Shown: positions 18,802 through 54,899 of the stretch, one piece after another
How positions within the stretch are numbered: position 1 is the stretch's first letter
Layout: each line of letters starts with the position of its first letter
DNA from: Chloroherpeton thalassium ATCC 35110
Lineage (GTDB): Bacteria; Bacteroidota; Chlorobiia; Chlorobiales; Chloroherpetonaceae
NCBI RefSeq assembly: GCF_000020525.1
Contig: NC_011026.1
Location: 974,001-1,038,000, forward strand
Reading direction: 5' to 3'
DNA length: 64,000 nt
Made by a program: the position numbers and the translations under genes
The notes under the pieces: model-generated
Told to the model about the DNA's origin: nothing
Seen by the model: the letters and a program-made list of their open reading frames with translations, nothing else
The model's database searches: none

Positions 18802-20073
18802 ATGGACAATGCCTCACCATATATAGCACCTGACGATAGCTATCAAAGGCGCTTTCAAGGGAGAAGTGTTCAGGAACAAGAACCACCTGAGCTCATCCCA
18901 AAGAACACGTTCGAGCCGCTGGCAGGAAAGCTTCTTTTGTTTTTAGTGATTCTCTTGATGTGCTTAGGCGTGTTGGCTGTGTATAGCAGCGGAGCCGGCT
19001 GGGGTGTACAAAAATTTTCAAACTCCGAGTATTTCCTTTGGCGCCAAGCGTTTTACACTTTTTTAGGAATTACGGTCATCTTTCTTGTCGGTGGGCTTAA
19101 CTACAAAATTCTGAAGCGATTTAGCAAAATTATTTTAATTGCTGCTGTCGGGCTGCTGGGATTATTGCTGGTGCTAAAAGCTGTCGGATTGGTCGATGGT
19201 GCGGCTCGCTGGATTGGGTTTGGAAAATTCCGATTTCAAGCGTCTGATATGGCCAAATACGCCATTATTATATATATGTCGCATTTGATCAGCGAAAAGC
19301 AAAGCTACATTAAAGATTTGCATCGCGCTTACTACCCGATGATTAGCATCCTGATGGCTGTGGTTACACTGGTTGCACTTGAGCCAAATTTCAGTACAGC
19401 CAGTGTTTTGGCATTAATTGGCTTTATTATGATGTTTGCGGGTCGAGTCAGCTTGCTACATTTAATTGTCACCCTGCTTGCTGTTTTACCATTTGGAGCC
19501 ATTTTTGCTATTGCCGCGCCGTATCGCATGGCTCGTTTGCTCACTTTTATTGGGCAAGGGGACGCCGCGATGAGTTATCAGATTCGGCAAGCGCTTATTG
19601 GGTTTGGCAATGGCGGGCTTTTTGGTTTGGGCCCGGGCGAAAGCAAGCAGCGAGAGCTTTTTCTTCCTGCACCTTACAACGATTTTATTTTTGCTGTTGT
19701 CGGTGAAGAGTATGGATTTTTAGGTGCGGTTTTAATTTTACTCATTTTTGTCGGAATTGTGATTTGCGGTGTTTCTATCGCAAAAAATGCGATGGATGAA
19801 TTTGGCCGTCATTTAGCTTTTGGCATAACAATTGCTATTGGGCTATATGCTTTTATTAATGCGGGTGTGGCTTGCCATGTGCTGCCAACAACCGGTTTAC
19901 CGATGCCGTTCATCAGTTTTGGTGGAAGCGCGGCGCTTTTTAATTCGTTTGGCGTTGGCATTCTAATTAGCATTTCGCGCGAGAAAAAACGCCTGAAGAA
20001 ATCGCAAGCAAAAACAGAGAAAAAAGCTGAGCCGAAAACCGGCTTCGGCGGTTATGCGGAGGCGCAACGATAA
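18802..20073 (+). CDS. ftsW: SEDS peptidoglycan glycosyltransferase FtsW
   Basis: 423 residues with about ten membrane helices of the SEDS family. Motifs include YSSGAGWG in the first periplasmic segment, GAARWIGFGKFRFQASDMAKYA, and the late loop NAGVACHVLPTTGLPMPFISFGGSA, where P-T-T-G-L-P-x-P-F-x-S-x-G-G is the SEDS signature. It polymerises septal glycan from lipid II with FtsI. The first 45 residues are an unusually long cytoplasmic tail, and the C-terminus is Lys-rich. It ends three bases before murG. Confidence 0.95.
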   Translation: MDNASPYIAPDDSYQRRFQGRSVQEQEPPELIPKNTFEPLAGKLLLFLVILLMCLGVLAVYSSGAGWGVQKFSNSEYFLWRQAFYTFLGITVIFLVGGLNYKILKRFSKIILIAAVGLLGLLLVLKAVGLVDGAARWIGFGKFRFQASDMAKYAIIIYMSHLISEKQSYIKDLHRAYYPMISILMAVVTLVALEPNFSTASVLALIGFIMMFAGRVSLLHLIVTLLAVLPFGAIFAIAAPYRMARLLTFIGQGDAAMSYQIRQALIGFGNGGLFGLGPGESKQRELFLPAPYNDFIFAVVGEEYGFLGAVLILLIFVGIVICGVSIAKNAMDEFGRHLAFGITIAIGLYAFINAGVACHVLPTTGLPMPFISFGGSAALFNSFGVGILISISREKKRLKKSQAKTEKKAEPKTGFGGYAEAQR

Positions 20074-20076
20074 ACC

Positions 20077-21174
20077 ATGAAATTGATCTTTGCTGGTGGC
20101 GGAACAGGTGGCCATGTATTTCCGGCCATTGCCATTGCCCAAGAAATTTTGAGAACGCAGCAGAATGCGGAAATTCAGTTCGTTGGAACGGAGCGCGGAA
20201 TTGAAGCGACTGCGGTGCCAAAGCAAGGATTTCCGATGCACTTGATTCCTGTGGCGGGTGTGAAACGAGGATTTTCGCCAAAAGAGCTTTTTGAAAATTT
20301 GAAAGTACCCATGCGACTTCAGCGCAGCCTTTCGGCTTGCCACGACATTTTGCAACGAGAAAAGCCAAATGTTGTGATTGGCACGGGCGGCTTTGTCAGT
20401 GGCCCGATTGTTTGGGAAGCTCAGTCCAAAAAAATTCCTACGCTCATTCAGGAGCAAAATTCCATGCCTGGCGTAACGACAAGACTACTTTCTCTGCGAG
20501 CAAGCGAAGTTCATCTCTCATTTGAAGAATCAAAAACGTATATTCGACGCACAAATGGGGTTTTCGTAACAGGAAATCCGACACGGCAATTTCAATCGCA
20601 TCGTCCGGCACAAGCTAAAGCGTTTTTTTCGCTTGATAGCACCAGAAAAACGCTGCTCGTTTTTGGCGGAAGTCTTGGCGCACGTTCGATCAACCAAGCC
20701 ATTGAGTCAAATTTAGAGGAATGGCTTGAAAAATTCAACTTGATCTGGCAAACAGGAAAGCTTGACTTTGCGGACATTGCCACGCGAATCGGTTCACGCA
20801 AAAATTTGTGGTACAACGCATTCATTGACCAAATGGACATGGCTTACGCTGCCGCCGACTTGGCTGTTTGCCGGGCGGGTGCATCTACTTTGGCTGAAAT
20901 TACCCATTTGGGAAAACCGTCGGTGCTTGTGCCTTATCCATATGCAGCGGCAAATCACCAATTTTATAATGCAAAATCGCTGGCCGATAACCACGCAGCC
21001 TTGCTGATAGAAAACAAAGATATTGGTCTTGAGACGTCCAAAACAGAGATTATGTCGCTTTTGCAGAATGAGTCGCGCTTAAAACAGATGTCGGAGAATA
21101 GTTTAAAATTAGGAAAACCCCATGCAACACGCATCATCGCCGAGCACGTTATTCGGCTTGCCGAGTTGGGCTGA
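20077..21174 (+). CDS. murG: UDP-GlcNAc:lipid I GlcNAc transferase MurG
   Basis: 365 residues, GT28 family, GT-B fold. The N-terminal glycine loop reads [14 protein letters not shown]; later motifs are [30 protein letters not shown], and the UDP-GlcNAc site [11 protein letters not shown]. It makes lipid II on the inner face of the membrane. It starts right after ftsW, and its 3' end runs close to murC; the two are likely co-translated. Confidence 0.96.
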
Positions 21175-21208
21175 GGCGGAATTGAACATTAAGGAAAAAG
21201 AAACTGTG

Positions 21209-22621
21209 ATGTACAGTGCATTAGGAAAAATACGCCATGTGCACCTGATAGGCATTGGGGGCGCAGGCATGAGCGCGATTGCTGAGGTATTGCTCAATCA
21301 AGGGTTTATTGTTACCGGCTCTGATTTGGTTGAAAGTGAGGTAACTCGCCGCTTAAGACATTGTGGTGCAACGATTTTCATCGGCCACGACCGTGACAAC
21401 ATTTCCGGCGCGGATGTCATCGTGCATTCATCCGCGGTTAAGCCAGAAATGAATGAAGAAGTTCAGGAAGCATTTGCGCGGCAAATTCCGGTCATCAAGC
21501 GCGATGAAATGCTGGGAGAATTGATGCGACGCAAAGCTGGCATTTGCATTGCAGGCACTCACGGCAAAACCACCACCACCACGATGGTTGGCACGATGCT
21601 CAAGGAATGTCACGAAGATCCAACGGTGATTATTGGCGGCATTTCGGATTATTTCAACGGTAGCGCGGTTGTTGGAAATGGAAATTACATGGTGATCGAA
21701 GCCGATGAATACGATCGGACTTTTTTAAAACTCACGCCGACAATTGGCGTGATTACAACACTTGAAGCCGAACATCTCGATATTTATAAAGATTTAGATG
21801 ATCTTAAGCAGGCTTTTGTACAATTTGCCAACACCGTGCCATTTTACGGCGCAGTGATTTGTTGCATCGATGAGCCTGCCATTGCAGCTATTTTGCCTTG
21901 CTTAAATCGCCGCGTGATTACCTATGGCCTGACGCCGGAAGCTGAGCTTCAGGCTAAAGAGGTTGTTTTTCATGGAAAGACGGCACATTTCACTGTGACG
22001 CATTTAGGCAAGCCGCTTGGCAAGCTGGAATTGAAGGCACCTGGCTTGCATAATGTAAAAAACGCCTTGGCAACGGTAGCCGTCGGTTTGGAGCTCGGGC
22101 TGGAATTTGATTCAATATGCAGAGCCTTAGCATCGTTCCAAGCCGTTCGTCGTCGTTTTCATGTAAAATATAGTGACGGCGAACCAAATGGTTTAATGGT
22201 TATCGATGATTATGCGCATCATCCAACAGAAGTTCGGGCAACGCTTGAAGCCGCTCGGTTGGGTTGGCCAAAGCATCATTTAATTGCAGTGTTTCAGCCA
22301 CATTTATTTTCTCGTACGCAAACTTTTGCCGATGAATTTGGCAAAGCCTTGGCACTGGCTGATGAAATCATTGTAACGGATGTTTATGCTTCCCGTGAAA
22401 AAGCGGAGGATTTTATCGGGGTTTCAGGTGATTTGGTAGTCAGAGCTGTTCAAAAAGCTGGTGGAAAAGCAAGTTACATCGAGCAAAAATCGGATATTAT
22501 CCAGCAACTTTTGAATCGTGCTTCTGCTGGCCAGATGATTATCACAATGGGCGCAGGAGATATTACCAAAATTGCCGGTGAGTTGGTAGAAAAGTTCAAT
22601 GGGGCAAGCAAGAGCCAATGA
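21209..22621 (+). CDS. murC: UDP-MurNAc:L-alanine ligase MurC
   Basis: 470 residues. Starts HVHLIGIGGAGMSAIAEVL, ATP loop AGTHGKTTTTTM, then EADEYDRTFL, TLEAEHLDIY, VRRRFHVK and DDYAHHPTEVRAT, all typical of MurC. It adds the first amino acid to UDP-MurNAc. The start at 21209 is preceded by AAGGAAAAAG, a good ribosome site; the frame is open upstream to 21122 inside murG, but without family sequence. Its stop overlaps the next start as ATGA. Confidence 0.95.
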   Translation: MYSALGKIRHVHLIGIGGAGMSAIAEVLLNQGFIVTGSDLVESEVTRRLRHCGATIFIGHDRDNISGADVIVHSSAVKPEMNEEVQEAFARQIPVIKRDEMLGELMRRKAGICIAGTHGKTTTTTMVGTMLKECHEDPTVIIGGISDYFNGSAVVGNGNYMVIEADEYDRTFLKLTPTIGVITTLEAEHLDIYKDLDDLKQAFVQFANTVPFYGAVICCIDEPAIAAILPCLNRRVITYGLTPEAELQAKEVVFHGKTAHFTVTHLGKPLGKLELKAPGLHNVKNALATVAVGLELGLEFDSICRALASFQAVRRRFHVKYSDGEPNGLMVIDDYAHHPTEVRATLEAARLGWPKHHLIAVFQPHLFSRTQTFADEFGKALALADEIIVTDVYASREKAEDFIGVSGDLVVRAVQKAGGKASYIEQKSDIIQQLLNRASAGQMIITMGAGDITKIAGELVEKFNGASKSQ

Positions 22622-23064
22622 GCATAAAATTTCAACTTGCTTCCAAAGATTTGCCATTAGTGCTTGTTCAGGTTAAAGTTACCGGATGTTCTTTGACAAA
22701 AAAAGTCATCGCAATTATTGATACCGGCGCAACCGGCTGCGTGATCAGCACCCAGCTTGCGGAGTCATTGGAAGCCCTGCCGATTGATGTGCCGAAAGAC
22801 GAAAAAGACGTACATGGAATTGGGGGGAAATTGCGTGTGGAATTTGTAAAGCTCAAAGAAATACGTTTAGATAGCCTTGCCTTAAAAAATATGAAAACGG
22901 CTGTCATGGATTTGTCGCAGATTAAAGCGCAATTCAGTTTGGCAAACGTCCCTGAAAAGCGACATGCGGATATGATTTTAGGGTTTCCTTTTTTTAAGGG
23001 ACGTGTGCTCAATATAGATTATAAGCTCAAAAAATTATCGATTTATCAAGAGGAGAGGAAATAA
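22618..23064 (+). CDS. Retropepsin-like aspartic protease in the dcw cluster
   Basis: 148 residues. The single catalytic motif is IAIIDTGATGCVIS near residues 36-49 (D-T-G-A). A second conserved block, ADMILGFPFFKG, ends with a strand NIDYKLKKLSIY. This is the pattern of single-domain, dimerising retropepsin-like aspartyl proteases (gag-asp/PF13650-like). No signal peptide or membrane helix is visible, so it should act in the cytoplasm. It overlaps murC by four bases (ATGA) and precedes murB by 13 bases, so it is built into the operon. No substrate is known from sequence. Confidence 0.8.
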   Translation: MSIKFQLASKDLPLVLVQVKVTGCSLTKKVIAIIDTGATGCVISTQLAESLEALPIDVPKDEKDVHGIGGKLRVEFVKLKEIRLDSLALKNMKTAVMDLSQIKAQFSLANVPEKRHADMILGFPFFKGRVLNIDYKLKKLSIYQEERK

Positions 23065-23077
23065 GAAAAGGGAAAAC

Positions 23078-24013
23078 ATGATCTCTATTGCAGACCTTCG
23101 CGAGGTGTTTCGGGGTGATGTCAAAATCAGCGCTTCGTTGGCGGAACATTCCGCATTCAAAATCGGTGGAAAAGCGGACATCGTGCTCAAGCCATTAGAC
23201 AAGGCCGATGCCATCAATGTCATCAAATTTTTTCACGAGAAGCAAAAGCCCCATATTGTGCTTGGGCGAGGAAGCAATGTCTTGATAAGCGATGATGGCG
23301 TGCGCGAAGCGGTTATTTTGCTAAGCGGCTGTTTAGAAAAGGTTGATATCAATGGCGAGCTGGTTTATGCGGAAGCGGGCGTGGATTTGCAAAAACTTGC
23401 GGTTCAAAGCTTGAACCACCGCCTGGGCGGCCTTGAAGCTTTTTCAGGTGTGCCGGGCAGTGTTGGTGGCGCGATTGTGATGAACGCTGGTGCGCATGGT
23501 CACGAGATTTTTGAGCTTATTGATTGGGTTGAAGTGGTGCGCGACGGCTCTCTTAAAAAATTGAGAAAAAATGAGATCAAAGCGCGGTATCGTGAGACCG
23601 ATTTGGCTCAAGATACGGTACTTTCAGCTCGTTTAAAGTTGAAACCAATTTCTGAAAAAGAGCAAGCCGAATGCTTTGAACGGCGCCGGGAGCTGATGGA
23701 AAAACGCCGCAATTCACAGCCGCTTTCGCTGCCAAACGTCGGAAGTATTTTTAAAAATCCTCCGCCTTATAATGGAGAATCGCGGCAATTTGCCGGCCAG
23801 CTTATTGAAGCGTGCGGCTTGAAAGGGGTTCGAGAAGGCGGCGCTATGATATCCGATAAGCATGCCAATTTTATTGTCAATTTGGGAAATGCAACAGCCA
23901 GCGATGTGCTGGCTTTGATCGAACTGGCGAAAACAAAAGTTCGCCTGCGTTTTGGCATCGATTTAGAACTTGAAATTAAGTTGATCGGATTTACGGAGCA
24001 TGTCGAAAAATAA
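23078..24013 (+). CDS. murB: UDP-N-acetylenolpyruvylglucosamine reductase MurB
   Basis: 311 residues. FAD-binding motifs LGRGSNVLISD and GVPGSVGGAIVMNAGAHG, followed by the shorter type II MurB catalytic segment NVGSIFKNPP and AGQLIEACGLKG, with a conserved Ser in G-S-I-F-K. It reduces UDP-GlcNAc-enolpyruvate to UDP-MurNAc using NADPH. It sits between the protease and ftsQ in one strand. Confidence 0.94.
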   Translation: MISIADLREVFRGDVKISASLAEHSAFKIGGKADIVLKPLDKADAINVIKFFHEKQKPHIVLGRGSNVLISDDGVREAVILLSGCLEKVDINGELVYAEAGVDLQKLAVQSLNHRLGGLEAFSGVPGSVGGAIVMNAGAHGHEIFELIDWVEVVRDGSLKKLRKNEIKARYRETDLAQDTVLSARLKLKPISEKEQAECFERRRELMEKRRNSQPLSLPNVGSIFKNPPPYNGESRQFAGQLIEACGLKGVREGGAMISDKHANFIVNLGNATASDVLALIELAKTKVRLRFGIDLELEIKLIGFTEHVEK

Positions 24014-24028
24014 AAAACGGAGCTAACT

Positions 24029-24925
24029 ATGAGTTCATTCGTCGAGTTTCCAGATGAAGAACCAGCGCGACCTAAAAAAGCTTCTTACGACAGTTATGTA
24101 GAACAACACGAACAGGTGCTTTCCGATTCAGGTACAATACCAGAAGCGCCTGAATCGCCAGTCGTTGAAAAAAAGCTGGCGGGGAAAAGCAAGTGGAAAA
24201 ATAATCGCATTTGGCCAGCCGTTTTTTCCATCGTAGGCCTTTTTACTTTTTTTGTATTGGCTCAACTTTGGATGAAAGATGCAACCCTCAGAGGATTTGT
24301 GGTAACAGGAAATAACATCATAAAAACCTCTGAAGTGACCGACAAGCTTAAAAATTTGTTAGGAAAACGGTTGGAAGACATTAAGCTGAGCGATGTTGAA
24401 AAAGAAATTAGCAAGCTAAACTATGCGGGTAAAGTGGTAGCGACCAAAGAAATGCCAGGAAATATCCGTATCAAAATCTACGAGCGTCGCCCGATTGCCC
24501 TTGTTGAAATTAACGGGGAAATCAAGTTTCTTTCAGAAGATAGAATGTTGTTAAATTATGAACCAAAAGTTTTAGATCGGCAGCGGCTGCCAATGCTAAC
24601 AGGCTTCAAAGCGGTTCATACCAAAAAAAATGGCATGAGCTACTTAGACAGCACGGAAGTTAGCGGGGCGATTTCTCTTTTAGCAGCAACGGAGCGCAGC
24701 GAGTTTGCGCACTTCATTTTAGGAGAAATCAATGTTTCTGACCCGAAAAAACTTTATGCTCGAACAAGCGATGCCGATGCCAAGTTTATTTTTGGAGATA
24801 ACGGAAATTTTGACCAAAAGCTTGATAACATGGAAGTATTTTGGAAACAAGTTATAACCAAACGAGGGGTGGGGGTTTTTGATTACGTTGATTTGCGGTT
24901 TGACGGAAAAATTTTCGCCCGATAA
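24029..24925 (+). CDS. ftsQ: Cell division protein FtsQ
   Basis: 298 residues: about 65 cytoplasmic residues with many charges, one membrane helix (about 67-86, WPAVFSIVGLFTFFVLAQLW), then a POTRA domain (TLRGFVVTGNNIIKTSEV) and a beta domain (MPGNIRIKIYERRPIALVEI). FtsQ recruits FtsL/FtsB and regulates FtsWI. Position just before ftsA and ftsZ supports the call; the distal part is weakly conserved in all FtsQ proteins. Confidence 0.9.
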   Translation: MSSFVEFPDEEPARPKKASYDSYVEQHEQVLSDSGTIPEAPESPVVEKKLAGKSKWKNNRIWPAVFSIVGLFTFFVLAQLWMKDATLRGFVVTGNNIIKTSEVTDKLKNLLGKRLEDIKLSDVEKEISKLNYAGKVVATKEMPGNIRIKIYERRPIALVEINGEIKFLSEDRMLLNYEPKVLDRQRLPMLTGFKAVHTKKNGMSYLDSTEVSGAISLLAATERSEFAHFILGEINVSDPKKLYARTSDADAKFIFGDNGNFDQKLDNMEVFWKQVITKRGVGVFDYVDLRFDGKIFAR

Positions 24926-25024
24926 ATTGATTATGTCTGTTTTCGAACATTTTATAGTAGATGACGCAGTGAAGAAACAGTTACGGAAACTCACAAAATT
25001 AGCGCTTAAAAAGCGAGGTAATTT

Positions 25025-26365
25025 ATGTCTCGAGGTAAAATAGTCGTCGGCCTTGACATAGGAACCACAAAAGTGTGTGCTGTGGTGGCCGAAAAGGATG
25101 AATTTGGCAAAATGAATATCCTTGGAATGGGGCGATCAAACTCCGAGGGACTTCAACGTGCGACCGTCATCAACATTAACAAAACAGTTGATGCTATTAA
25201 AGAAGCTGTTTCAGAAGCAGAGCACACTTCATCTATAAAAATTAAGGGCGTAAATGTCGGGATTTCAGGTGAGCATGTTCAGTTCGTTAGAGGAAATGCG
25301 GAAGTGAGCATCAATCCGTTGGGGATTGTCAATCATGCCGACGTTTTACGGTTTGTTGAAAAAGCCAAAAAAAACCTGAAATATATCGATATTGATAGAG
25401 AAATTATCCATGCGATTCCTCAAGAATTTATTGTAGACGATCAAGAAGGCGTTCTCGACCCGATTGGAATGGCCGGTATTTCCATGAAAGGCTCGGTTTA
25501 TGTGGTCGTTGGAATGAAAATGAGAATCCGCAATATCGAGCATTGCATCGCACACGCAGGCCTTGAAATTAAGGCCATGACATTTGAGCCCATTGCATCC
25601 GGGCTTGCGGTCATAAAAGAAAGCGAGCGAAAAAGCGGCGTGGTGGTTATTGATATTGGTGGCGGAACCACCGATATTGCGATTTACTCTCGCGGCGTGA
25701 TTCGTCATTCAGGTGTGATCAAAGTAGCCGCTGTTGATGTCACAAACGATGTGGCAATTGGCTTGAAAACACTGCATGAAATTGCCGAAGACCTCAAAGT
25801 CAAGCACGGCTGTGCCTACATGCGCGAGTTGATGAATGATGAAGAAATTCAAGTGCAAGGAATTGAAGGCCGTCCGCCTAAAAATTTTATGCGAAGCGCC
25901 TTAACAAATATCATCGAAGCACGAATGATAGAGATTTTTGAGTTGGTTCGTGCTGAGCTCAAAAAATCAGGATTTTATGATTATCTCAATGCGGGCGCCA
26001 TCATCACCGGCGGCGGCAGCTTGATTCCTGGAACACAAGGTCTTGCTCAAGAAATTTTAGGTTTGGACGTTCGGATCGGCTATCCTGAAGGCATTTCTGG
26101 CGGAATTAAAAAAGATATTAATAACCCGATGTATGCAACCGTGATGGGACTCGTTGCCCATGCGTTTGACGATATGGAGCAACATCAAGAGCAAATGGAA
26201 GCGCTGCGGGAAAATGAGCGCCAACAAAAAGAAATTGCAGCTCAAATAGATGCGCCGGCATCGGACTCTACGGATGAGCCACCAGAATCGGATATGCCTC
26301 AAAATGCAAAGAAACCAGACAAATCGTTTTTATTGAAAATAAAAAACTGGTTAGACCAAATATGA
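25025..26365 (+). CDS. ftsA: Cell division protein FtsA
   Basis: 446 residues, actin fold. VGLDIGTTKVCAVVAE (phosphate 1), the inserted 1C SHS2 domain around 85-165, VVIDIGGGTTDIAIYS (phosphate 2) and GAIITGGGSLIPG (adenosine). The acidic and proline-containing linker ends in an amphipathic helix FLLKIKNWLDQI, the membrane-targeting sequence that tethers FtsZ filaments. It lies 99 bases after ftsQ and about 150 before ftsZ. Confidence 0.95.
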   Translation: MSRGKIVVGLDIGTTKVCAVVAEKDEFGKMNILGMGRSNSEGLQRATVININKTVDAIKEAVSEAEHTSSIKIKGVNVGISGEHVQFVRGNAEVSINPLGIVNHADVLRFVEKAKKNLKYIDIDREIIHAIPQEFIVDDQEGVLDPIGMAGISMKGSVYVVVGMKMRIRNIEHCIAHAGLEIKAMTFEPIASGLAVIKESERKSGVVVIDIGGGTTDIAIYSRGVIRHSGVIKVAAVDVTNDVAIGLKTLHEIAEDLKVKHGCAYMRELMNDEEIQVQGIEGRPPKNFMRSALTNIIEARMIEIFELVRAELKKSGFYDYLNAGAIITGGGSLIPGTQGLAQEILGLDVRIGYPEGISGGIKKDINNPMYATVMGLVAHAFDDMEQHQEQMEALRENERQQKEIAAQIDAPASDSTDEPPESDMPQNAKKPDKSFLLKIKNWLDQI

Positions 26366-26517
26366 TAGGTCTTACACTTTATGGATAAATCGTAGCGCCT
26401 TCATTCATGATGATTTTATAAAACAGTAATAGATCGTGTGGAAAAAAAGCATCTCAAAACAAGTTTATTTACCAAATAACCTGCAAAGCGCAGTGATTAC
26501 AGTGGAGGGAAAAATCT

Positions 26518-27804
26518 ATGGGCTTTGAAATAGACAAGACCGACAAAGGATTAGGCGCGAAAATAAAGCTAATTGGTGTCGGAGGTTGTGGAGGCAATGC
26601 TGTCAATAACATGATTGAGCGCCGCATTGAAGGCGTTGAATTCATTGTATGCAATACCGACGTGCAGGCACTCGAAAACTCCAAGGCACCGGTTCGAGTT
26701 CAAATAGGAAAATCAACGACCTCAGGTCTCGGCGCCGGCGCAGAACCATCTCGCGGGAGACAAGCAGCTGAGGAAGATCGTGAAGAAATTTCCGAACTGA
26801 TTCGCGGATGCGACATGGTGTTTATCACTGCCGGCATGGGCAAAGGCACGGGCACAGGCGCAGCACCTGTACTTGCCAGCATTGCCAAAAACCTTGGTGT
26901 ATTAACCATTGGCATTGTTACCATGCCATTCAAGTTTGAGGGACGCAAAAAATGGGAAATTGCCGAAAATGGCATTGCAGAACTTCGCAAGCATGTCGAT
27001 ACACTCATTGTCGTCCAAAATGAAAAGATCCTAAACATCGCAAGCGATGATGCAGACGTCAAAGAAGCTTACGATATTGCCAACGATGTGCTTTATCGTG
27101 CAGCAAAAGGAATCTCTGACATTATCACAAAGCACGGACATGTTAATGTCGATTTTGCCGACGTCAAAGGCATCATGACCGATGCTGGCGACGCGGTTAT
27201 GGGCTCTTCGACCGCAGCAGGTGAAAACCGTGCAATGAAAGCAGCGATGGAAGCGATTTCAAGTCCGCTTCTCGATGGCGTTTCTATCAAAGGCGCAACG
27301 GGCGTTTTGGTCAACATTACGGGCGATGTCAAAATGCGCGATATGGCCGAAGCCATGAGCTACATTGAAGAAGAAGCTGGCTCTGAAGCGAAAATCATTA
27401 ACGGATACGTTCAAGACAACTCCGTTCCTGGAGAAATTAGTATCACGGTTATTGCAACGGGTTTTAACAAAATGGCTGGCAAACCACAACATGCCACAGG
27501 AAAGCCGATTCGGGTTGTTCGCCAGGAAGACCAAACCCCGCCGCCGCGAAAACCGGAGGAAAATCGGGGAAATATCAACACATTGGCTGATGATCTGCAT
27601 TCAGGAGATGAAGCACCGGCTTTTATTAAGCAAGGAAGAAAGACCTACCAGCCATCACCCGAAAATGCCGATGCTAATTTGCAGCAAGACGAAAATCCTC
27701 AGCCGGAGCAACCGCGTCCATATCAGAATCCGTCGCCCGGGCAAGATCGTATTAGAAAGTCAAATACGGATACGCCGGCATTTCTCAGAAAAATCATGGA
27801 CTAA
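26518..27804 (+). CDS. ftsZ: Cell division GTPase FtsZ
   Basis: 428 residues. GTP-binding tubulin fold with [13 protein letters not shown], the signature [12 protein letters not shown] near residues 105-116, and synergy loop around [12 protein letters not shown] long disordered linker (about 325-415, rich in Pro, Gln and Asn) leads to the C-terminal peptide [10 protein letters not shown], which binds FtsA. GGAGGG-like sequence (GTGGAGGG) precedes the start. It ends the dcw cluster and is followed by a terminator. Confidence 0.97.
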
Positions 27805-27861
27805 AAAGCAGAGGAACTCGCCAGTAAAAAATTCGTATGAAGCGTTGTTGCTTCAAATAGT

Positions 27862-27890
27862 AAGGCCGCCCATGAGTGGCCTTTTTGTTT
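27862..27890 (+). terminator. Terminator of the dcw cluster
   Basis: Stem AAGGCC (27862-27867) / GGCCTT (27878-27883) with a 10-base loop and a T-rich tail, 58 bases after the ftsZ stop codon. Confidence 0.75.
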
Positions 27891-28014
27891 TTGCCATATG
27901 TTTCTCTGTCCGAAAAACAACGCTTCACTATTTTGGTCATCGCTAAGAAAGAAGCCAAACGAAAGTATGTATATTTTGCAAGCGTTGATACGATGATAAC
28001 CTAATATTTTTTGC

Positions 28015-29361
28015 ATGAGCATTGAACAGCCTTATTCAGTAGAAGAAAATAAGCAGCTCGGCAGCGAGCCTGATAAAATCTCCTTAACCAGTCCTGATAC
28101 GCTTTCCTCACCAAATTCAAGTTCTGGAGAAAAAGAAAAAAAACTCACCCATACAACCTTTTCCGCTTTTCAACATCGTAGCTACCGCTTGATGTGGATC
28201 GGCTCATTCATTTCCAACATGGGCACATGGTCGCAGCGCGTAGCTGAGCCATGGTTAGTTTTCAACCTTTCCGGCTCGGCTTTTTTACTTGGTTTAAACG
28301 GGTTTGCCGCAGAATCGCCATTGCTCGCATTTCTTTTGCTTGGCGGAGTTTTGGCCGATAGAACAGACCGAAAAAAAGCCCTTATCATCGCCCAACTGGT
28401 TCAAATGCTCAGCGCACTGGCCATTATGTCTCTTGCCTTAACCGATAGCTTAACGGTTTGGCTCATCATAGCCCTTTCGTTTGTTGTAGGCTGTGCACAA
28501 TCCGTTTCGACGCCAGCTTATCTTTCGATTTTACCATCGCTTGTGAGTCGCGAGAATTTAACCAATGCCATTGCGCTAAATTCTACACAGTTTAATCTTT
28601 CCCGCTTGATTGGACCTGTGATCGGAGGAATTCTTTTAACTTCGATTGGTGCGGCTTGGTGCTTCGGTGTGAATGCACTCTCTTATGCGGCGGTCATTTT
28701 TGTGCTGGCCATTATTGCTGTGCCAAAAGCGGACACGCAAAATGCCGGAGAAGATGTTTGGAAAAGCATGCGCGAAGGCCTTTTGGAGGTCGCCTCTAAA
28801 AAAGAGCTTGTCACCTTGATCATCATTATTTGCTCGGTGAGCTTTTTTGCAGGTCCATTGCTAACCTTCCTGCCTGTGCTGGCAAAAGAAGTGCTTCATG
28901 TAGATGCACAAGGGTTTAGTATTGCGTTGGCGTGTTTTGGTGGAGGCGCTGTGGTTGGAGCGTTAATTATCGCTAGCGCCGGCCACATAGAAAATCGTTT
29001 TCGCATTGTTATTGGAGCAACAGCGCTGCTGGGAGCTTCGCTTATCGCCATCTCTTTTTCAAACAGTTATCTGCTCAGTCTTGTTTTTATGGCTATTGCA
29101 GGTATCGCATTTGTTGGTTGCGGCTCGCTTGCCAACACGATTATGCAAACCTCTGTCTCAGATAGAATTCGCGGTCGGGCTGTCAGCATCTACGCATTGG
29201 CCTTTCGCGGTGGATTACCTCTGGGGAATTTAGTGGCCGGAGCGCTGATTCATAGTTTTAATGTACAACTCGTATTGGGCTTAAATGGCTTGGCGCTTCT
29301 TATCATTTTGTTTTTTACTTATCAATTCGGCTACCGAAAATATGTGGTTTCCGCAGTTTAG
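28015..29361 (+). CDS. Major facilitator superfamily exporter (EntS/MFS_3-like)
   Basis: 448 residues. About 45 polar N-terminal residues are followed by about 12 membrane helices. The conserved opening FSAFQHRSYRLMWIGSFISNMGTWSQRVAEPWLV is that of the MFS_3 (enterobactin exporter-like) family; GGVLADRTDRKK is the loop 2-3 motif A. Many members export drugs, siderophores or unknown metabolites. No biosynthetic gene lies beside it, so the substrate is unknown. The MFS family call is secure. Confidence 0.88.
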   Translation: MSIEQPYSVEENKQLGSEPDKISLTSPDTLSSPNSSSGEKEKKLTHTTFSAFQHRSYRLMWIGSFISNMGTWSQRVAEPWLVFNLSGSAFLLGLNGFAAESPLLAFLLLGGVLADRTDRKKALIIAQLVQMLSALAIMSLALTDSLTVWLIIALSFVVGCAQSVSTPAYLSILPSLVSRENLTNAIALNSTQFNLSRLIGPVIGGILLTSIGAAWCFGVNALSYAAVIFVLAIIAVPKADTQNAGEDVWKSMREGLLEVASKKELVTLIIIICSVSFFAGPLLTFLPVLAKEVLHVDAQGFSIALACFGGGAVVGALIIASAGHIENRFRIVIGATALLGASLIAISFSNSYLLSLVFMAIAGIAFVGCGSLANTIMQTSVSDRIRGRAVSIYALAFRGGLPLGNLVAGALIHSFNVQLVLGLNGLALLIILFFTYQFGYRKYVVSAV

Positions 29362-29445: not shown

Positions 29446-30165
29446 TTAGCTTTTGGTCACATTCATGGCACATCGCTTTAACTCTCGGGTTAATGCCAGC
29501 GGAGACTCGATGATAATTTTAGCTCGTTCGATTTTCAAGACGCTTTCCGCCGCCAGTTTGCGAATAACACGAATGGCCGTTTCGGTAGTCAGTCCGGCCA
29601 TTTCAGCAATTTCGCGACGGCGCAATGTGATCACAATCGGGTACGCCTTTTGACCAGACTTTTCAACAATTCGCTCTAACGTAACCAAAATGCGATGGCG
29701 TGGCGAACTTGTTGCCAATTCCCGAATGACCTTATTTTTTTCCCGCAGCAGCTTCGAGAGCTCTCTGATAATCGCAAAGGAAAAATCAGGATTTGTTTTG
29801 AGTAATTCTAAAAAGCGCTCCCGCTCAAGTTCTACCATTCGCGTGCGTTCCATTGCAATGGCCGTAGCTGGATAAGAAAGGTTATCGACAAGCGGCGGAA
29901 TGACAAACGCATCCCCATCGGTAAAAATGTTAATAATCGTTTCTTTTCCCTCATCAAGAAATTTGACAACCTTCACTCGCCCTGAGAGAATGATCGGTAA
30001 AAACTTCGGCGGCGCGCCTTCCTGAAATAGTGTGTCATCCGTATCGTACTGTTTTTCCCGCCCAAACAACGAGAGCTCAGCCTGAAGCGATTTAGGCAAA
30101 CATTCTAAAAAATTTGGCATGTTCTCAAAGTTCCATGTGGACTTGTTTGTGAATTGAAAGTTCAA
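29446..30165 (-). CDS. Crp/Fnr-family transcription regulator
   Basis: 239 residues (or 224 if the in-frame ATG at 30120 is used). A cyclic-nucleotide-binding-like jelly roll covers about 30-140 (ILSGRVKVVKFLDEGKETII, FTDGDAFVIPPLV), followed by a dimer helix and a Crp-type HTH (TLRRREIAEMAGLTTETAIRVIRKL). There is no Cys cluster for an Fe-S centre, so it is unlikely to sense oxygen as Fnr does. Its promoter region lies inside the replication origin; a DnaA-like box (30170-30178) sits right before the upstream start. Target genes are unknown. Confidence 0.87.
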   Translation of the reverse strand: MNFQFTNKSTWNFENMPNFLECLPKSLQAELSLFGREKQYDTDDTLFQEGAPPKFLPIILSGRVKVVKFLDEGKETIINIFTDGDAFVIPPLVDNLSYPATAIAMERTRMVELERERFLELLKTNPDFSFAIIRELSKLLREKNKVIRELATSSPRHRILVTLERIVEKSGQKAYPIVITLRRREIAEMAGLTTETAIRVIRKLAAESVLKIERAKIIIESPLALTRELKRCAMNVTKS

Positions 30166-30412
30166 AATCTGTTGATAACTACTTCAAAAATCAACATAAA
30201 CCTTTATATAATAATAATTAAACAAAGTTATCAACATTGTTGAAAACGTGTGGATAACTTTAATTTTAACCCCAATCATTCATAACAAAAAAAATTATAC
30301 CTCGATTTACATGAATGATTTGCTAAAAACATTGCTATTTTGTTGGTTTTCGTTTCTTGAATTGACGGCGTTCATCGGTTCATTCGAGATGAATTTAAGC
30401 CGGTAAAAAACG

Positions 30413-30445
30413 AAAATGCTGAAAATAGAGCATTTTCAGCATTTT
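30413..30445. repeat. 14-bp perfect inverted repeat inside oriC
   Basis: AAAATGCTGAAAAT (30413-30426) pairs perfectly with ATTTTCAGCATTTT (30432-30445) around a 5-base loop. No gene ends nearby on either side, so it is not an ordinary terminator. It lies just left of the DnaA box array. Confidence 0.75.
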
Positions 30446-30499
30446 GGCGATTCGAAAAGAAATCCACGTGTTATCAACAGGTTATCCACGTGGATTTCA

Positions 30500-30564
30500 C
30501 GTGGATAAAGGGCACTTTCGACGTGGATAAAGGGTACTTTCGACGTGGATAAAAACGTGGATAA
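30500..30564 (-). repeat. Helically phased DnaA box array
   Basis: Four minus-strand boxes CGTGGATAA start at 30500, 30522, 30544 and 30556. The first three are embedded in a near-perfect 22-bp direct repeat (GTGGATAAAGGG, C or T, ACTTTCGAC), so successive boxes fall on the same DNA face two turns apart. The fourth follows after 12 bases. Such an array would favour an ordered DnaA filament. Confidence 0.88.
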
Positions 30565-30787
30565 AAAAAGCACGATGGATGATTCACCAAATGATTGTAA
30601 TTTTACGTGGATAACTTGGGAGTTATCCACAAGTTTTACACATAGTGAATTCGAAAATAATTTCCTATAAAGCTTTATAAAATAATAATTTACAGAAACA
30701 AAGAAAGAAGTTATCCAGATATCCACGTCCCCAACGTCAACAATTGTATTTCGAAAATAAACAACACAAAAACATCGTTACGTTAGA

Positions 30788-31921
30788 ATGAAATTTTCGT
30801 CGTCCATAAAACATCTTTCGGAAGCCGTTAATAATACGGTACTTGCTTTGCCCGCGAAAGCCACCGATGCTCGTTATGAGAGTATTAATCTCAAACTTGA
30901 GCAGAATAAGTTGTCGCTTTTTGCAACCGATGGAGATATTTCCTTAACCCTGCAAACTAATGTAGAATCTTCAGACTCGGGGGCAGCATCGCTCAACGCG
31001 AAGAAATTTCAGGATGTCCTACGCAACATGTACGATGCGATCGCTGAATTTAGCGTGACTGAAAAGGAATCGGCTGAGCAGCTCAGTTTTTTGATCAAAA
31101 CAGACAGAGGCTCTTATGTTATTTCTGCACAGGCGGGTTTTGAGGAAGAAAGCGCAGGCTCGCTTCAGTTCGATTTAAACTTTCCCATTTCTCGAGAGCA
31201 CTTAGCGGGATTAATTGATAAAACGATTTTTGCGGCCAGCACCGACGGGATGCGTCCGGCCATGATGGGTGTGCTGTTTGAAATCGAGGCCGAAACCATT
31301 CGTGCGGTTTCAACCGACGGCCACAGGCTTGTGAAAATCACTCGCAATCACAACACCGGCGCGGAAGGAAAGTTGAAAATTATTGTTCCATCGCGTGTGT
31401 TGGGTATTGTCCGCAAGCTTTTTTCGGAAGATGGGGATGTGGAAATTTCAATTGATGCAAATAGCCAGCGCATTCGTTTTCGCATGGGCGAGACCATTTT
31501 GCTTTGCAGCTTGGTTTCGGAAAATTATCCAAATTACGAAGCCGTCATTCCGCTTGAAAATGATAAAACGATGCTGCTAAATCGCTCAAACTTATTAGGC
31601 TCGGTAAAGCGTGTCGGGCGGTTTTCGTCACGCGGCGATGTGCGTTTTCATGTGCAAGAAAACTCGCTCGCGGTTTCGGCAGAAAATGCTGACGAAGGCG
31701 CATCCGCCGACGAAAGCGTCCCATGCGAGTATAAAGACGAGGCAATTTTAATCGGCTTTAATTCCAAGTTTATCGAAGACGCGCTGCAGCACTTGAACGC
31801 AGAGGAAGTCATTTTCCAGTTTAGCTCGCCGACACGCGCCGCCATTATTCTTCCGAAGCAAGAAGAAGATGCAAATGAAGACGTCCTGATGCTGGTTATG
31901 CCAGTTCGGATTAATGTATAA
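30788..31921 (+). CDS. dnaN: DNA polymerase III beta sliding clamp
   Basis: 377 residues. Three beta-clamp domains: MKFSSSIKHLSEAVNNTV at the N-terminus, PISREHLAGLIDKTIFAAS with VSTDGHRLVKI in domain 2, and VGFNSKFIEDAL-like IGFNSKFIEDALQHL with LVMPVRI at the C-terminus (M-P-x-R is the family's typical end). It holds polymerase III on DNA. It begins directly right of the origin and precedes recF by 97 bases. Confidence 0.96.
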   Translation: MKFSSSIKHLSEAVNNTVLALPAKATDARYESINLKLEQNKLSLFATDGDISLTLQTNVESSDSGAASLNAKKFQDVLRNMYDAIAEFSVTEKESAEQLSFLIKTDRGSYVISAQAGFEEESAGSLQFDLNFPISREHLAGLIDKTIFAASTDGMRPAMMGVLFEIEAETIRAVSTDGHRLVKITRNHNTGAEGKLKIIVPSRVLGIVRKLFSEDGDVEISIDANSQRIRFRMGETILLCSLVSENYPNYEAVIPLENDKTMLLNRSNLLGSVKRVGRFSSRGDVRFHVQENSLAVSAENADEGASADESVPCEYKDEAILIGFNSKFIEDALQHLNAEEVIFQFSSPTRAAIILPKQEEDANEDVLMLVMPVRINV

Positions 31922-32018: not shown

Positions 32019-33125
32019 TTGAAGTTATTCAAACTTAGCATTCACGGATTTCGCTCGCATCAGGATGCCGTATTTTTGCCTCACGATGGCATCAACTTGA
32101 TTTATGGGAAAAATGGTACTGGAAAAACCAACTTGCTTGAAGCGATTCACTACACGTGTTTAACAAAAAGCTTTCTTTCCACATCAGATAGCGATGCGCT
32201 GCATTTTCAGGCTGGCCATTTCGAACTGGAGGCGGTTTTGCAAAGCGATTCTGAAAATGAATCCAAAGTCAGGGTTTATTATTCTCCCGCCGAAGGCAAG
32301 CATGTTTTCATTAACAAAACGCCGCTTGAATCCTTTTCAAAAATTGTTGGTGAATTTCCTTGCGTGGCGCTTTCGCCTTACGACATTGCCCTAACTCAAG
32401 GTTCACCGCAGGAGCGCCGGCGTTTTTTGGACGCCTCCATTTCTCAGACCAATAAAGCATACCTCGCCGATTTGCTCAGCTATCGGCGCGTGCTTGCCCA
32501 GCGCAATAAACTCCTCGCTGATATGAAACACCGCACTTTTTCATCTCCAGAGCTTGATGTTTGGACGGCGAGTTTATCCGCACTGGCGGCGTCTATTATT
32601 TTTCGTCGGATTCATTTCGTGCGCGATTTTGCGCAGTATCTTGAAAACGCCTATGCTGATTTTCAATCCATCGATGAAACGCCTGGCTTGACTTACAAAA
32701 CAGAGCTTTCATTAAATGAAAATTCTTTTTCCGAAGCAGAACTCGCCAAGCAAATTTCAGAGAAGTTTGAGGAAATGAAGTTCGATGAGCTGCGTCGTGG
32801 CCTCACACTTTTCGGGCCTCATCGCGACGATTTGGCGTTTTCCATCAACAATCTTTCCCTCCGAAAATATGCCTCGCAAGGTCAGCACAAGACCTTTGTC
32901 ATCTGTTTAAAACTCGCGCAGTATTTCTATATTTGCGAATTGCTTTCCGAGAAGCCGATTTTTTTGCTCGATGATGTTTTCAGTGAACTGGATAGCCAGC
33001 GCGCCGAAGAGCTTGTGAGAATTCTTTCATCCAAGCGCTCAGGCCAGAGTTTTATTACGACAACCGAGCGAAAAGACTTTGCAGAAGTGAAGCAGCACAC
33101 AATTGGGGGAATCATTTCCGGCTAA
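32019..33125 (+). CDS. recF: DNA replication and repair protein RecF
   Basis: 368 residues of the SMC-like ATPase family. Walker A YGKNGTGKTNLLEAI, signature-like YASQGQHKTFVICLK, and Walker B PIFLLDDVFSELD. RecF loads RecA onto gapped DNA together with RecO and RecR. The start codon is TTG at 32019: the product then begins MKLFKLSIHGFRSH, matching the family's N-terminus, and there is no ATG in place. The unusual start may lower translation. It follows dnaN, the usual partner. Confidence 0.95.
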   Translation: MKLFKLSIHGFRSHQDAVFLPHDGINLIYGKNGTGKTNLLEAIHYTCLTKSFLSTSDSDALHFQAGHFELEAVLQSDSENESKVRVYYSPAEGKHVFINKTPLESFSKIVGEFPCVALSPYDIALTQGSPQERRRFLDASISQTNKAYLADLLSYRRVLAQRNKLLADMKHRTFSSPELDVWTASLSALAASIIFRRIHFVRDFAQYLENAYADFQSIDETPGLTYKTELSLNENSFSEAELAKQISEKFEEMKFDELRRGLTLFGPHRDDLAFSINNLSLRKYASQGQHKTFVICLKLAQYFYICELLSEKPIFLLDDVFSELDSQRAEELVRILSSKRSGQSFITTTERKDFAEVKQHTIGGIISG

Positions 33126-33143: not shown

Positions 33144-33437
33144 ATGCCATACACGGATGAACCGCGCTCTTTTGGGAGCGTGCTTGAGGTGCTTTATAAA
33201 AAACTTGGCCTTGAAGGATACGCGAAAGAGTTTAAAGCTGTGAGCGTTTGGGGAACTGTTGTTGGGCCTCACATTGCACGAGTCTCCGAAGTTGAAAAAA
33301 TTGTGAATGGCGTTTTATATGTGAAAGTGAAAAATTCGGCTTGGCGAAATGAACTGAACTTCAAGAAAGTGACCATCATCCACCAACTCAATAAACACAT
33401 TGGTCAGGAGCTTGTCATTGACATTGTGTTTCGATAA
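33144..33437 (+). CDS. DciA-like protein (DUF721), probable replicative helicase loader
   Basis: 97 residues. The DUF721 domain fills the protein: SVLEVLYKKLGLE, VWGTVVGPHIARVSEV, VLYVKVKNSAWRNELNFKK. The W-x-x-V-V-G and the V-x-N-S-x-W-x-x-E-L motif are the core of DciA, the ancestral bacterial loader or helper of DnaB in lineages without DnaC or DnaI. It is placed just after recF by the origin. The short form has only the KH-like domain. Confidence 0.82.
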   Translation: MPYTDEPRSFGSVLEVLYKKLGLEGYAKEFKAVSVWGTVVGPHIARVSEVEKIVNGVLYVKVKNSAWRNELNFKKVTIIHQLNKHIGQELVIDIVFR

Positions 33438-35746: not shown

Positions 35747-36052
35747 TTACATTAAAGCCTCTAAGCCTTTTCTTTCCATGATATCCAACAATTTTCTTGA
35801 AGCGCCTGTAGGCTTTTTATTCCCCTGTTCCCACTTCTGTACAGTAGAGGTACTAATATTGAAAACGCTTGCCAACGCAGCTTGGCTTAAATTAAATCTT
35901 TTTCGGATTTCGGTTATTTTTTTGGGAGAGTAGTCTTTAACTTCCGGAAGACATAATTTTTCAATATTTCTTAGAGTAATGTCATCCACAAGCCCACTTT
36001 TATTTAAGTCCCTTACGGTTTTCGTTATTGAATCCGAAATTGATTTTCTCAT
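35747..36052 (-). CDS. NadS-like HTH antitoxin
   Basis: 101 residues. N-terminal helical part, then an XRE-type HTH in about residues 45-90 (RKRFNLSQAALASVFNISTSTVQKWEQGNKKPTGAS). It overlaps the toxin gene by four bases and is transcribed after it, the toxin-first order common for HigBA-type pairs. It should bind the toxin and repress the pair's promoter. The family name NadS is inferred from pattern. Confidence 0.82.
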   Translation of the reverse strand: MRKSISDSITKTVRDLNKSGLVDDITLRNIEKLCLPEVKDYSPKKITEIRKRFNLSQAALASVFNISTSTVQKWEQGNKKPTGASRKLLDIMERKGLEALM

Positions 36053-36417
36053 GTTGCCACCTCTTTTAAATCACCATTTTGGACCGCTATATCAATTTCA
36101 CTTTCAGAAAACGAAAGTAAAATTTTAGCAAGTTCCTTGAAGACAAATAGCTCTTTGGGTGAAAGGTTTGATTTTTCATTTTTTGAGAAACCATGGATGA
36201 AAATAATTCTGCTCCCTTTTTTATAGCAAACAATCGTTCTTCCACTACCGCTTTTGCCTTGACCAGCGAAACGAATTCTTTTTTTGTAAATGTGCCCACC
36301 CAAATTTGCTTCGTAAATTCCACTACCGACTTCTTCCAATGCTGTTTCCAAATCATCAATCGGTATTTTTTGCTTTGAATCCCATTTCACAAAGTGCTTT
36401 GTCATTAATTTTCGCAT
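36049..36417 (-). CDS. RelE/HigB-like toxin (PF06296-type)
   Basis: 122 residues. The core GGHIYKKRIRFAGQGKSGSGRTIVCYKKGSRIIFIHGFSKNEKSNL is typical of the RelE-like HigB group (COG4737/PF06296), whose members cut mRNA at the ribosome or inhibit growth otherwise. The final Glu-rich helix (LSPKELFVFKELAKILL) is also family-like. It is the first gene of the pair; the start codon lies next to an AT-rich, probably promoter-bearing stretch. It is intact. It lies on the accessory island. Confidence 0.85.
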   Translation of the reverse strand: MRKLMTKHFVKWDSKQKIPIDDLETALEEVGSGIYEANLGGHIYKKRIRFAGQGKSGSGRTIVCYKKGSRIIFIHGFSKNEKSNLSPKELFVFKELAKILLSFSESEIDIAVQNGDLKEVAT

Positions 36418-36638: not shown

Positions 36639-38081
36639 CTATAATCCACAAGCTGTTTTAATAGCTGCAGTGGCTACGCCAATGCCAATTTTTTCAGCAA
36701 CACTTAACGCCCACTTTCCTGCCTTTGCTAAAGCTGATAAAACTTGAGGGCCATCACCTTTTTTCGCTTCAATCTCAGCGTTTGCAATTGCCCCGATCTC
36801 AGCAAATTCCTCTGCGTTTTTTGCTGTTTTTTGAAGCTCTTCACGTAATATTGTTAACTCATTCGATAAAGCCTGCAAATCAATATTCCCTTTCGTTTGA
36901 TTCCATATTTGGTTGAAAGTCATGTCATGCGCATGAGCGTTAGGGCCTAATGCGCCTACTTGGCCCGCTTCGTATCTATCCCCCATTGTGACCTCCTCAA
37001 TGTTTATTGTTAAGTCCCCCCACTTGTTAATATAATCTTCAACCTTTCTCAGTATATTCGGTCGAAAATCGATACTTTTCAGGACATTGACAAGAGCATC
37101 TTTTTTGCCAGGGCTTATGATATTCATTGATTCTCTAGCTATCTTACATATTTCATCTTCAAATTGCTTAGAAGATTGTGAGTCAAGAATACCAATTCGA
37201 CGAGTTGCTTCATTAATATAATATTGCAAGTTGTCTGACATTGGTGATCTTGGTTGCACATCGATAGCTTTTGACATGATACCTCTTAATACCAACCGGA
37301 GACTTTCATGCTCTGCATGAAGTCTGAGAAGATATATTCTAAGACGACGAGCCGCATCTGTATCAGAGTAATCGTATGAGTAGTTATCAAGAAGCCATAG
37401 TTGGATATTTTTCCCATGGAATGGAACAACGCAATTGTACAAATCAAAGTCACGATCACTAATTTTAACGTTACGTGACCAATAAGGAACTGGAACGTCT
37501 TCATTGCTTTGACAGTCTAAGAATAACAATGGCCTTCCAGGACGCACTGCCAAATCACTTGGAGTGATTATTTGTTTATCGGTATGCTTTGTCGTAGCAT
37601 GATAATATAGACTTGCCACGGATTGGGCTGAATGTCCTAATAGGACCTCTCTGTAATTACCTCCAGATTCACGTACACGAGTAGGCAGATTAAGGAAGTT
37701 GTCTACTATCTCTTTAACCGTTTGTTTGGTAAGCACTACTTTTCTACGGGTTTTAGTTGCAATTCCTAACTCAAATTTACCAACCGCAAGACCATCGAAA
37801 TACAGGCGCCTAAAAGCTATCCGGGTTGTAAATTGTCTCCCAGAGTGATCATCCTTTATTTTTGGGCAATAACTAAGACGTATTAAACGATTAGCCTCAC
37901 ATACTTCATTTTCACCAAGCCAGCCACAAATGCCTCCTCGTTTCCTGACTCTTACAGCACCTGAAAAACGAACGAACTCATCATCTGGAGTAGGTATTGG
38001 CCAACCTGGTTTAGCTAGACGACCAGTTGCTTCAGAAAAACCTCTCAAATCAACAAAAGGAAATTGAATTGTTAACAGCAT
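36639..38081 (-). CDS. Unrecognised 480-residue island protein, possible effector
   Basis: I do not recognise a catalytic family. The N-terminal 300 residues are mixed alpha/beta, beginning MLLTIQFPFVDLRGFSEATG, with FVRFSGAVRVRKRGG and GWLGENEVCEANRLIRLSY. A helical segment with NLQYYINEATRRIG follows. A short Gly/Ala/His linker (GQVGALGPNAHAHDMTFNQIW, given in part) comes next; similar linkers occur in bacterial conflict proteins. The end is a coiled coil and then a hydrophobic, glycine-rich helix (about 450-480: GIGVATAAIKTA). I start it at 38081 because the frame further upstream (to 38357) translates a structured RNA and its terminator. Base composition is AT-rich compared with neighbours. 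Confidence 0.7.
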   Translation of the reverse strand: MLLTIQFPFVDLRGFSEATGRLAKPGWPIPTPDDEFVRFSGAVRVRKRGGICGWLGENEVCEANRLIRLSYCPKIKDDHSGRQFTTRIAFRRLYFDGLAVGKFELGIATKTRRKVVLTKQTVKEIVDNFLNLPTRVRESGGNYREVLLGHSAQSVASLYYHATTKHTDKQIITPSDLAVRPGRPLLFLDCQSNEDVPVPYWSRNVKISDRDFDLYNCVVPFHGKNIQLWLLDNYSYDYSDTDAARRLRIYLLRLHAEHESLRLVLRGIMSKAIDVQPRSPMSDNLQYYINEATRRIGILDSQSSKQFEDEICKIARESMNIISPGKKDALVNVLKSIDFRPNILRKVEDYINKWGDLTINIEEVTMGDRYEAGQVGALGPNAHAHDMTFNQIWNQTKGNIDLQALSNELTILREELQKTAKNAEEFAEIGAIANAEIEAKKGDGPQVLSALAKAGKWALSVAEKIGIGVATAAIKTACGL

Positions 38082-38098
38082 GGCATCCCTCAAATTGC

Positions 38099-38135
38099 AA
38101 AAAAAAAAGCTCCTCACCGACAAACGGTGAGGAGC
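38099..38135 (-). terminator. Strong terminator between the RNA and the 480-residue gene
   Basis: Perfect 11-bp stem GCTCCTCACCG / CGGTGAGGAGC (38109-38119 with 38125-38135), 5-base loop, then ten T residues on the minus strand (38108-38099). It lies only 18 bases before the protein start codon, so it ends the short RNA or acts as an attenuator. Confidence 0.9.
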
Positions 38136-38256
38136 AGCAGAAATCGCTTTGCATCCGCTTTCACGTGCATAGCGCCCCCCCTTACGACAGGGGCGAATCT
38201 CTGTTTCCAGAGATCCTGCGACCCACAAGCAATCCATAGTTGCTTGAAGATTAGCT
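38099..38256 (-). ncRNA. Structured small RNA upstream of the 480-residue gene
   Basis: About 150 nucleotides. In order on the minus strand: a 7-bp hairpin CAAGCAA/TTGCTTG; ATCTCTG-GAAA-CAGAGAT with a GNRA tetraloop; a GC hairpin CGCCCC/GGGGCG with loop around TGTCGTAA; an asymmetrical region TATGCACGTGAAAGCGGATGC with possible long-range GCA/TGC and CGCT/AGCG pairs; and the terminator. The hairpins are stacked nearly end to end, far beyond chance for AT-rich DNA. It could be an independent RNA partner of the protein or a cis-regulatory leader. I know no named family that it matches. Confidence 0.65.
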
Positions 38257-38261
38257 ATCTT

Positions 38262-38288
38262 TTTATAATAACAGATTATGGTTGTCAA
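38262..38288 (-). promoter_or_regulatory. Promoter of the structured RNA
   Basis: On the minus strand, TTGACA (38288-38283) and TATAAA (38267-38262) are separated by 15 bases. The spacing is two shorter than ideal. Predicted start is near 38255, just at the first hairpin, which supports the call. Confidence 0.5.
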
Positions 38289-38495
38289 TACTTTGTGCAT
38301 TCCCTTAACAGTAAGATAAAATTTATGTTCCTCGCGACATTGTTGGTTCGCTAACATTGATTAGATAGTTTCTTTATAATATGCCTTATTCGCATTTTTG
38401 CAATATAACAACCCAACAAAAAAACATCATAAATCATTTTATTTCAATAACTTAATCTATTAATCGCACTTAAAATGGGGTGATATATAGTTTCT

Positions 38496-51028: not shown

Positions 51029-51044
51029 TGTTTCACGTGAAACA
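51029..51044. promoter_or_regulatory. parS site (ParB/Spo0J binding)
   Basis: A perfect 16-bp palindrome, TGTTTCACGTGAAACA, identical to the canonical bacterial parS. It lies 25 bases before mnmG and about 20 kb from the origin. parS sites cluster near origins and nucleate ParB for chromosome segregation. Confidence 0.93.
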
Positions 51045-54883: not shown

Positions 54884-54899
54884 TGTTTCACGTGAAACA
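54884..54899. promoter_or_regulatory. Second parS site, touching the polB start
   Basis: Another perfect TGTTTCACGTGAAACA, 3.86 kb from the first. Its last base is the A of the likely polB start codon (54899), so ParB binding could affect polB expression. Confidence 0.93.

Follow-up and report, generated by a model that had tools for sequence, protein, structure and literature searches.

The intergenic region at positions 30166-30787 of the window (the whole 64-kb stretch of DNA analysed here, C1:974001-1038000 of a single 3,293,456-bp contig, 99.9% complete) very probably harbours the replication origin of the Chloroherpeton thalassium chromosome, as three independent signals, namely a switch in GC skew, the genome's densest DnaA-box cluster and nearby parS sites, all point to this place. 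Initiation within the region is predicted from these sequence signals. Taken as a whole, the locus is likely to represent a DnaA-dependent chromosomal origin that has been split from dnaA and that carries a variant DnaA-trio element. The named relatives identified with DnaN belong to the Chlorobiales/Chlorobiaceae (42-47% identity). An earlier sequence-only reading had proposed an oriC here, and the second box cluster at dnaA, the unwinding-type element on the dnaN side and the parS sites are additional to it. The bare location of the origin may already be recorded in origin databases such as DoriC, and our literature search found no paper joining Chloroherpeton with oriC, or DnaA-trio with Chlorobium.

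Signals for an origin beside dnaN

GC skew was sampled from 20-kb stretches, amounting to ~0.9 Mb in total. The sampled skew was positive at ~0.98-2.6 Mb and negative on the arc running from 2.65 Mb past base 1 to ~0.97 Mb, and a two-arm skew switched near 0.98-1.03 Mb and 2.6 Mb, with none of 500 shuffles fitting as well. Within the window, raw skew was distorted by co-oriented cell-division genes at 10-28 kb, and it was rejected as an origin locator because gene orientation makes it misleading. These genes form a murein/division cluster (murG, murB, ftsA, ftsZ and neighbours; 10000-28000) whose end is ~2.4 kb left of oriC; its transcription runs toward the origin and so meets the leftward fork head-on. 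Since gene orientation biases raw skew, we fitted third-codon-position skew in a strand-corrected model of 646 ORFs with transcription and replication terms apart. The best grid origin in this model was 1.02 Mb (fine minimum, 1.014 Mb; bootstrap 95% range, 0.955-1.086 Mb) and the terminus was at ~2.6 Mb; position 1,004,500 differed from the grid best by no more than 1.0 log-ratio unit, whereas dnaA was worse by 86. The cumulative third-position and intergenic skews had their minima at 0.995-1.025 Mb, skew having a precision of tens of kb. The sequence-only reading had named a skew switch elsewhere as evidence against an origin here, and the switch was found at the window, not at dnaA. An origin at the window implies roughly equal arms of ~1.6 and ~1.7 Mb, and no more than 51-53% of long ORFs run in the direction of replication.

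The features of the locus are listed in Table 1. Eight exact TTATCCACA/G boxes lie in the 622-bp interval, as the sequence-only reading had counted at the least, and the number rises to 13 when up to one mismatch is allowed. Shuffles of the interval (order-1 Markov, n = 500) contained on average 0.03 exact and 0.39 near boxes, with maxima of 1 and 4, and none of the other 622-bp stretches of the window had more than two. The dense box cluster expected of a DnaA-dependent oriC is therefore present. Of the 33 copies of TTATCCACG in the genome, six sit here inside 133 bp, making this the genome's densest cluster of that sequence, and two further copies sit just upstream of dnaA. Three boxes had been described as lying inside a 22-bp tandem repeat; the 22-bp spacing is real, but the repeat is short, consisting of two full units (95% identical) and the first 12 bp of a third, which gives three boxes at 22-bp spacing and a fourth 12 bp further on. 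Note that the 22-bp array is known from one genome of the genus. Likewise, the reported 14-bp palindrome has perfect symmetry but is actually an inverted repeat with a 5-nt loop; lying inside oriC, it is no obvious terminator for an adjacent gene. The AT-rich flanks were borne out (68% AT in the interval vs 54% in the window). Two copies of an AT-rich 24-mer flank the DnaA-box array, each followed by AAACAAAG and then a DnaA-box-like site. Their alignment score of 21 was reached by none of 500 shuffles (shuffle maximum, 20), and the far-left copy could be either a remnant or an additional site of opening.

Table 1. Coordinates of features in the window
Feature	Position	Strand	Remarks
MFS gene	28015-29361		left of Crp/Fnr-type gene
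Crp/Fnr-type regulator	29446..30165	-	left flank; Pfam cNMP_binding and HTH_Crp_2; ortholog in G087 on a different contig
Predicted oriC	30166..30787	.	intergenic between Crp/Fnr-type gene and dnaN; box cluster far above chance, skew switch, parS proximity
AT-rich 24-mer, second copy	30196..30219	+	22/24 identical to the copy at 30667..30690
DnaA box TTATCCACA	30249..30257	-	left AT-rich side
Inverted repeat, perfect	30413..30445		14-bp arms, 5-nt loop
Core DnaA-box array (TTATCCACG)	30482..30564		boxes 30482(+), 30500(-), 30522(-), 30544(-), 30556(-)
Convergent DnaA-box pair	30606..30631		30606(-) TTATCCACG and 30623(+) TTATCCACA
AT-rich 24-mer ATAAAGCTTTATAAAATAATAATT	30667..30690	+	candidate unwinding/AT region or dnaN promoter
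Tandem DnaA boxes TTATCCAGATATCCACG	30711..30727	+	directly before dnaN, conserved in the order
4-nt spacer TCCC and triplets CAA CGT CAA CAA TTG	30728..30746	+	same phase as (CAA)5 of Chlorobiaceae
dnaN (sliding clamp)	30788..31921	+	Pfam DNA_pol3_beta domains
recF	32019..33125	+	Pfam SMC_N; position kept in relatives
dciA	33144..33437	+	Pfam DciA, 2.8e-19
parS TGTTTCACGTGAAACA, perfect	51029..51044		just before mnmG
parS TGTTTCACGTGAAACA, perfect	54884..54899		just before family-B DNA polymerase gene

Origin-proximal genes and parS sites are also where they are expected. The dnaN-recF-dciA succession proposed earlier is confirmed by coordinates and Pfam matches, and perfect parS sites occur just twice in the genome, 20 and 24 kb rightward of oriC; in most relatives tested, parS is 5-35 kb from dnaN. 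Further right of dciA, the minus strand carries a small two-gene module resembling a toxin-antitoxin pair (35747-36417; one product is an HTH protein matching the MqsA type, the other has 122 aa), followed by a 572-aa ORF without any Pfam match (36639-38357).

Separation of dnaA from the probable origin

No dnaA gene was found within the 64-kb window. It is located on the same contig at C1:1-1491, that is, at base 1 and 1.0 Mb from dnaN, beside rnpA/yidC (sequence reading and synteny). The usual dnaA-oriC-dnaN order is thus broken, with Crp/Fnr-type and MFS genes at the left, in agreement with the sequence-only reading. Across about 80 related genomes we observed the ancestral order rpmH-boxes-dnaA-boxes-dnaN-recF; dnaA-dnaN-recF was present in nearly all of ~70 Chlorobiaceae loci, with boxes before dnaA and often also between dnaA and dnaN. 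In the same-family genome G087, dnaA-dnaN-recF is intact and mnmG and polB are near recF, and the order is intact in G088, G089 and G091-G094 as well. In the present genome, dnaN-recF...mnmG-polB-parS remains together, and dnaA remains with rnpA/yidC. This comparison puts the break exactly between dnaA and dnaN, indicating that the origin core stayed with dnaN and that the left flank was replaced. Both explanations offered earlier are hence supported: that the origin stayed while dnaA moved, by gene order together with the skew switch, and that the left flank was replaced, by the retained dnaN-side block and the distant dnaA. As an inversion test, the neighbours of the Crp gene in G087 were compared, and their gene order was scrambled.

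The order is also broken, in different ways, in G090 and G095-G097, whose dnaA, dnaN and recF genes are dispersed (loci L175-L177 and L170-L174, respectively), indicating that the dnaA-dnaN linkage was lost at least twice in the order; judging from these arrangements, it has probably been lost three times in the Chlorobiales. G090, which was split independently, has a weak skew whose switch may lie nearer dnaA, so that this genome does not clearly back a general association of the origin with the dnaN element. The family-B DNA polymerase gene (54899-57352), which adjoins parS and mnmG here, lies near recF in G087 and directly after dnaA in G090, which makes it an old origin neighbour in the order.

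We propose that dnaA lay within the ancestral origin, flanked by DnaA boxes to either side. A rearrangement would then have parted dnaA from dnaN, leaving origin function with the half next to dnaN and placing dnaA and its promoter-side boxes 1.0 Mb away. The dnaA side still has about seven near-boxes, including an 11-bp-spaced doublet that is also found in relatives, and these probably serve dnaA autoregulation only. One could instead suppose that the true origin lies at dnaA, the boxes beside dnaN serving only for DnaA titration or dnaN regulation. The retained rnpA/yidC neighbourhood and dnaA's own cluster of near-boxes would suit such an arrangement; however, skew does not change sign across dnaA, the third-position fit is far poorer there, no perfect parS occurs within 1 Mb of dnaA, and the dnaN-type element described below is absent upstream of dnaA (profile best score, -33), making this reading hardly credible. 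It is also very improbable that both halves are active, with the split origin initiating at dnaN and at dnaA: an extra skew switch would then be expected, and none was seen near dnaA in the sampled skew. Although both loci have box clusters and conservation of the dnaA-side doublet extends throughout the order, autoregulation fits the dnaA-side boxes.

Conserved element upstream of dnaN and residue 187 of DnaA

A conserved element with the layout TTATCCAGATATCCACR, 4 nt and triplets is found in the order. In the Chlorobiaceae, a TTGTCCAGATATCCACA-type tandem box pair, a 4-nt spacer and (CAA)5 stand immediately upstream of dnaN, and 52-63 bp separate the end of the tandem boxes from the dnaN ATG. 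The 4-nt spacer and in-phase triplets were present in 72/72 Chlorobiaceae, with CAA in 61-69 of the 72 at each position, and 50 of 54 non-redundant Chlorobiaceae genomes had exactly five triplets. Mean information was 1.45 bits for the boxes, 0.34 for the spacer, 1.71 for the triplets and 0.49 upstream. In the present genome, the sole exact match to TTRTCMAGATWTYMACR is at the tandem boxes at 30711. The profile match there scored 12.8 as against 3.5 for the next best (0.99 Mb searched), a score well below those of Chlorobiaceae members (minimum, 37.5), and the triplets are imperfect. Read by eye, sequences from outside the Chlorobiaceae suggest conservation of no more than the first one or two triplets. 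In G095-G097, a related element is upstream of recF rather than dnaN, which argues that it is not simply a dnaN leader.

The element is close to the basal unwinding system (BUS; DnaA-boxes 6/7 plus DnaA-trios; PMC6669920, PMC8287927, PMC10721633) in having tandem boxes 8 bp apart and a fixed 4-nt spacer (30711-30731 here; 4 nt in all 72 Chlorobiaceae), then five or so in-phase triplets and AT-rich DNA. The control origins from Bacillota, Priestia (TTATCCACATTTCCACA GCCC CTA TTA CTA CTA), Latilactobacillus (TTATCCACAGGTTCCACA GGCC CTA CTA CTA TTA) and Acetoanaerobium (TTATCCACAAATCAACA CTCC CTA TTA CTA TTA), have nearly the same geometry, but the middle base of the triplets differs. On the captured strand this base is T here and A in the BUS; whereas the BUS has 3'-NAN-5' (5'-YTN on the box strand), only one of the five in-phase triplets here is YTN. 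Asn187 of B. subtilis DnaA makes contact with the trio's middle adenine, and changing this adenine to T or G impairs opening, C being tolerated (PMC10721633). In a survey, 15% of genomes yielded no trios, and its authors suspected 'deviant' ones that lack the middle adenine (PMC8287927).

The contact residue differs as well. When B. subtilis DnaA (8BTG) was aligned with 80 Chlorobiales DnaA sequences, residue 187, Asn in B. subtilis, was Ile, including in this genome's DnaA, with Leu or Val in one genome each. Residue 202, the guanine-contacting Arg202 of B. subtilis, was Ser (Ala in one genome), although the first triplet base is kept, and Glu183 and Glu228 are retained. Residue 187 is N or Q in most Bacillota, Actinomycetota and Gammaproteobacteria, N in Thermotoga and Q in Aquifex (alignments read by eye). 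Tyr/Trp in Alphaproteobacteria, Tyr in Monoglobus and Val in two Bacteroidota show that a change at 187 is not unique to the Chlorobiales.

These comparisons lead us to favour, with some reservation, the reading that the CAA triplets act as a variant DnaA-trio, and they seem matched to the change in Chlorobiales DnaA. DnaA would nucleate on the 22-bp-spaced array, where boxes two helical turns apart share the same face, and load at 30482-30631. It would then join the tandem boxes at 30711-30727, and the filament would cross the 4-nt spacer into the triplets at 30732-30746 and extend toward dnaN, opening the flanking AT-rich DNA. With CAA-type triplets instead of CTA/TTA on the box strand, the captured strand would read 3'-GTT-5', not 3'-GAT-5'. 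Both the unwinding site and the reading of the triplets by DnaA are predictions from comparison. We see an evenly balanced case for the wider proposal that the Chlorobiales have an altered trio code, in which Ile/Leu/Val187 DnaA captures 3'-GTT-5', initiator and signal having changed together, and in which the dnaN-side half of the split origin suffices. The triplets may conversely be an unstructured leader or translation element of dnaN beside ordinary boxes, as CAA repeats are unstructured and the Chlorobiaceae boxes end so close to the dnaN ATG. We consider this unlikely, given that the triplets stand at a constant 4 nt from the boxes although the spacer itself varies in sequence, that the same layout occurs with classical trios in Bacillota, and that the related element of G095-G097 precedes recF.

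Knowledge of DnaA-trio recognition rests largely on B. subtilis. If the variant-trio reading is true, the whole order would be a 'deviant' trio case, with a fixed in-phase change of the middle base and a matching change of the contact residue, and the altered triplet code could be tested with short oligonucleotides. The natural separation of dnaA and oriC would in turn test the need for the dnaA-side half of a bipartite origin and the effect of late dnaA replication on initiation control.

Comparison with other separated and bipartite origins

A close known case is the oriC of Synechococcus elongatus, which is at dnaN (PMC7198777); phylum and element differ here. Unlike in S. elongatus, close relatives keep the intact order and thereby pin the break down to the point between dnaA and dnaN. 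In bipartite origins flanking dnaA, such as incAB/incC of B. subtilis and oriC1/oriC2 of H. pylori and other Epsilonproteobacteria, box clusters lie on both sides of the gene, as they likewise do in Chlorobiales relatives, and unwinding in the known bipartite origins is on the downstream, dnaN side (PMC5043019, PMC8235120). The relatives have their two clusters within looping distance; in contrast, the halves are 1.0 Mb apart in C. thalassium, where a complex looping out dnaA would be impossible in the usual way.
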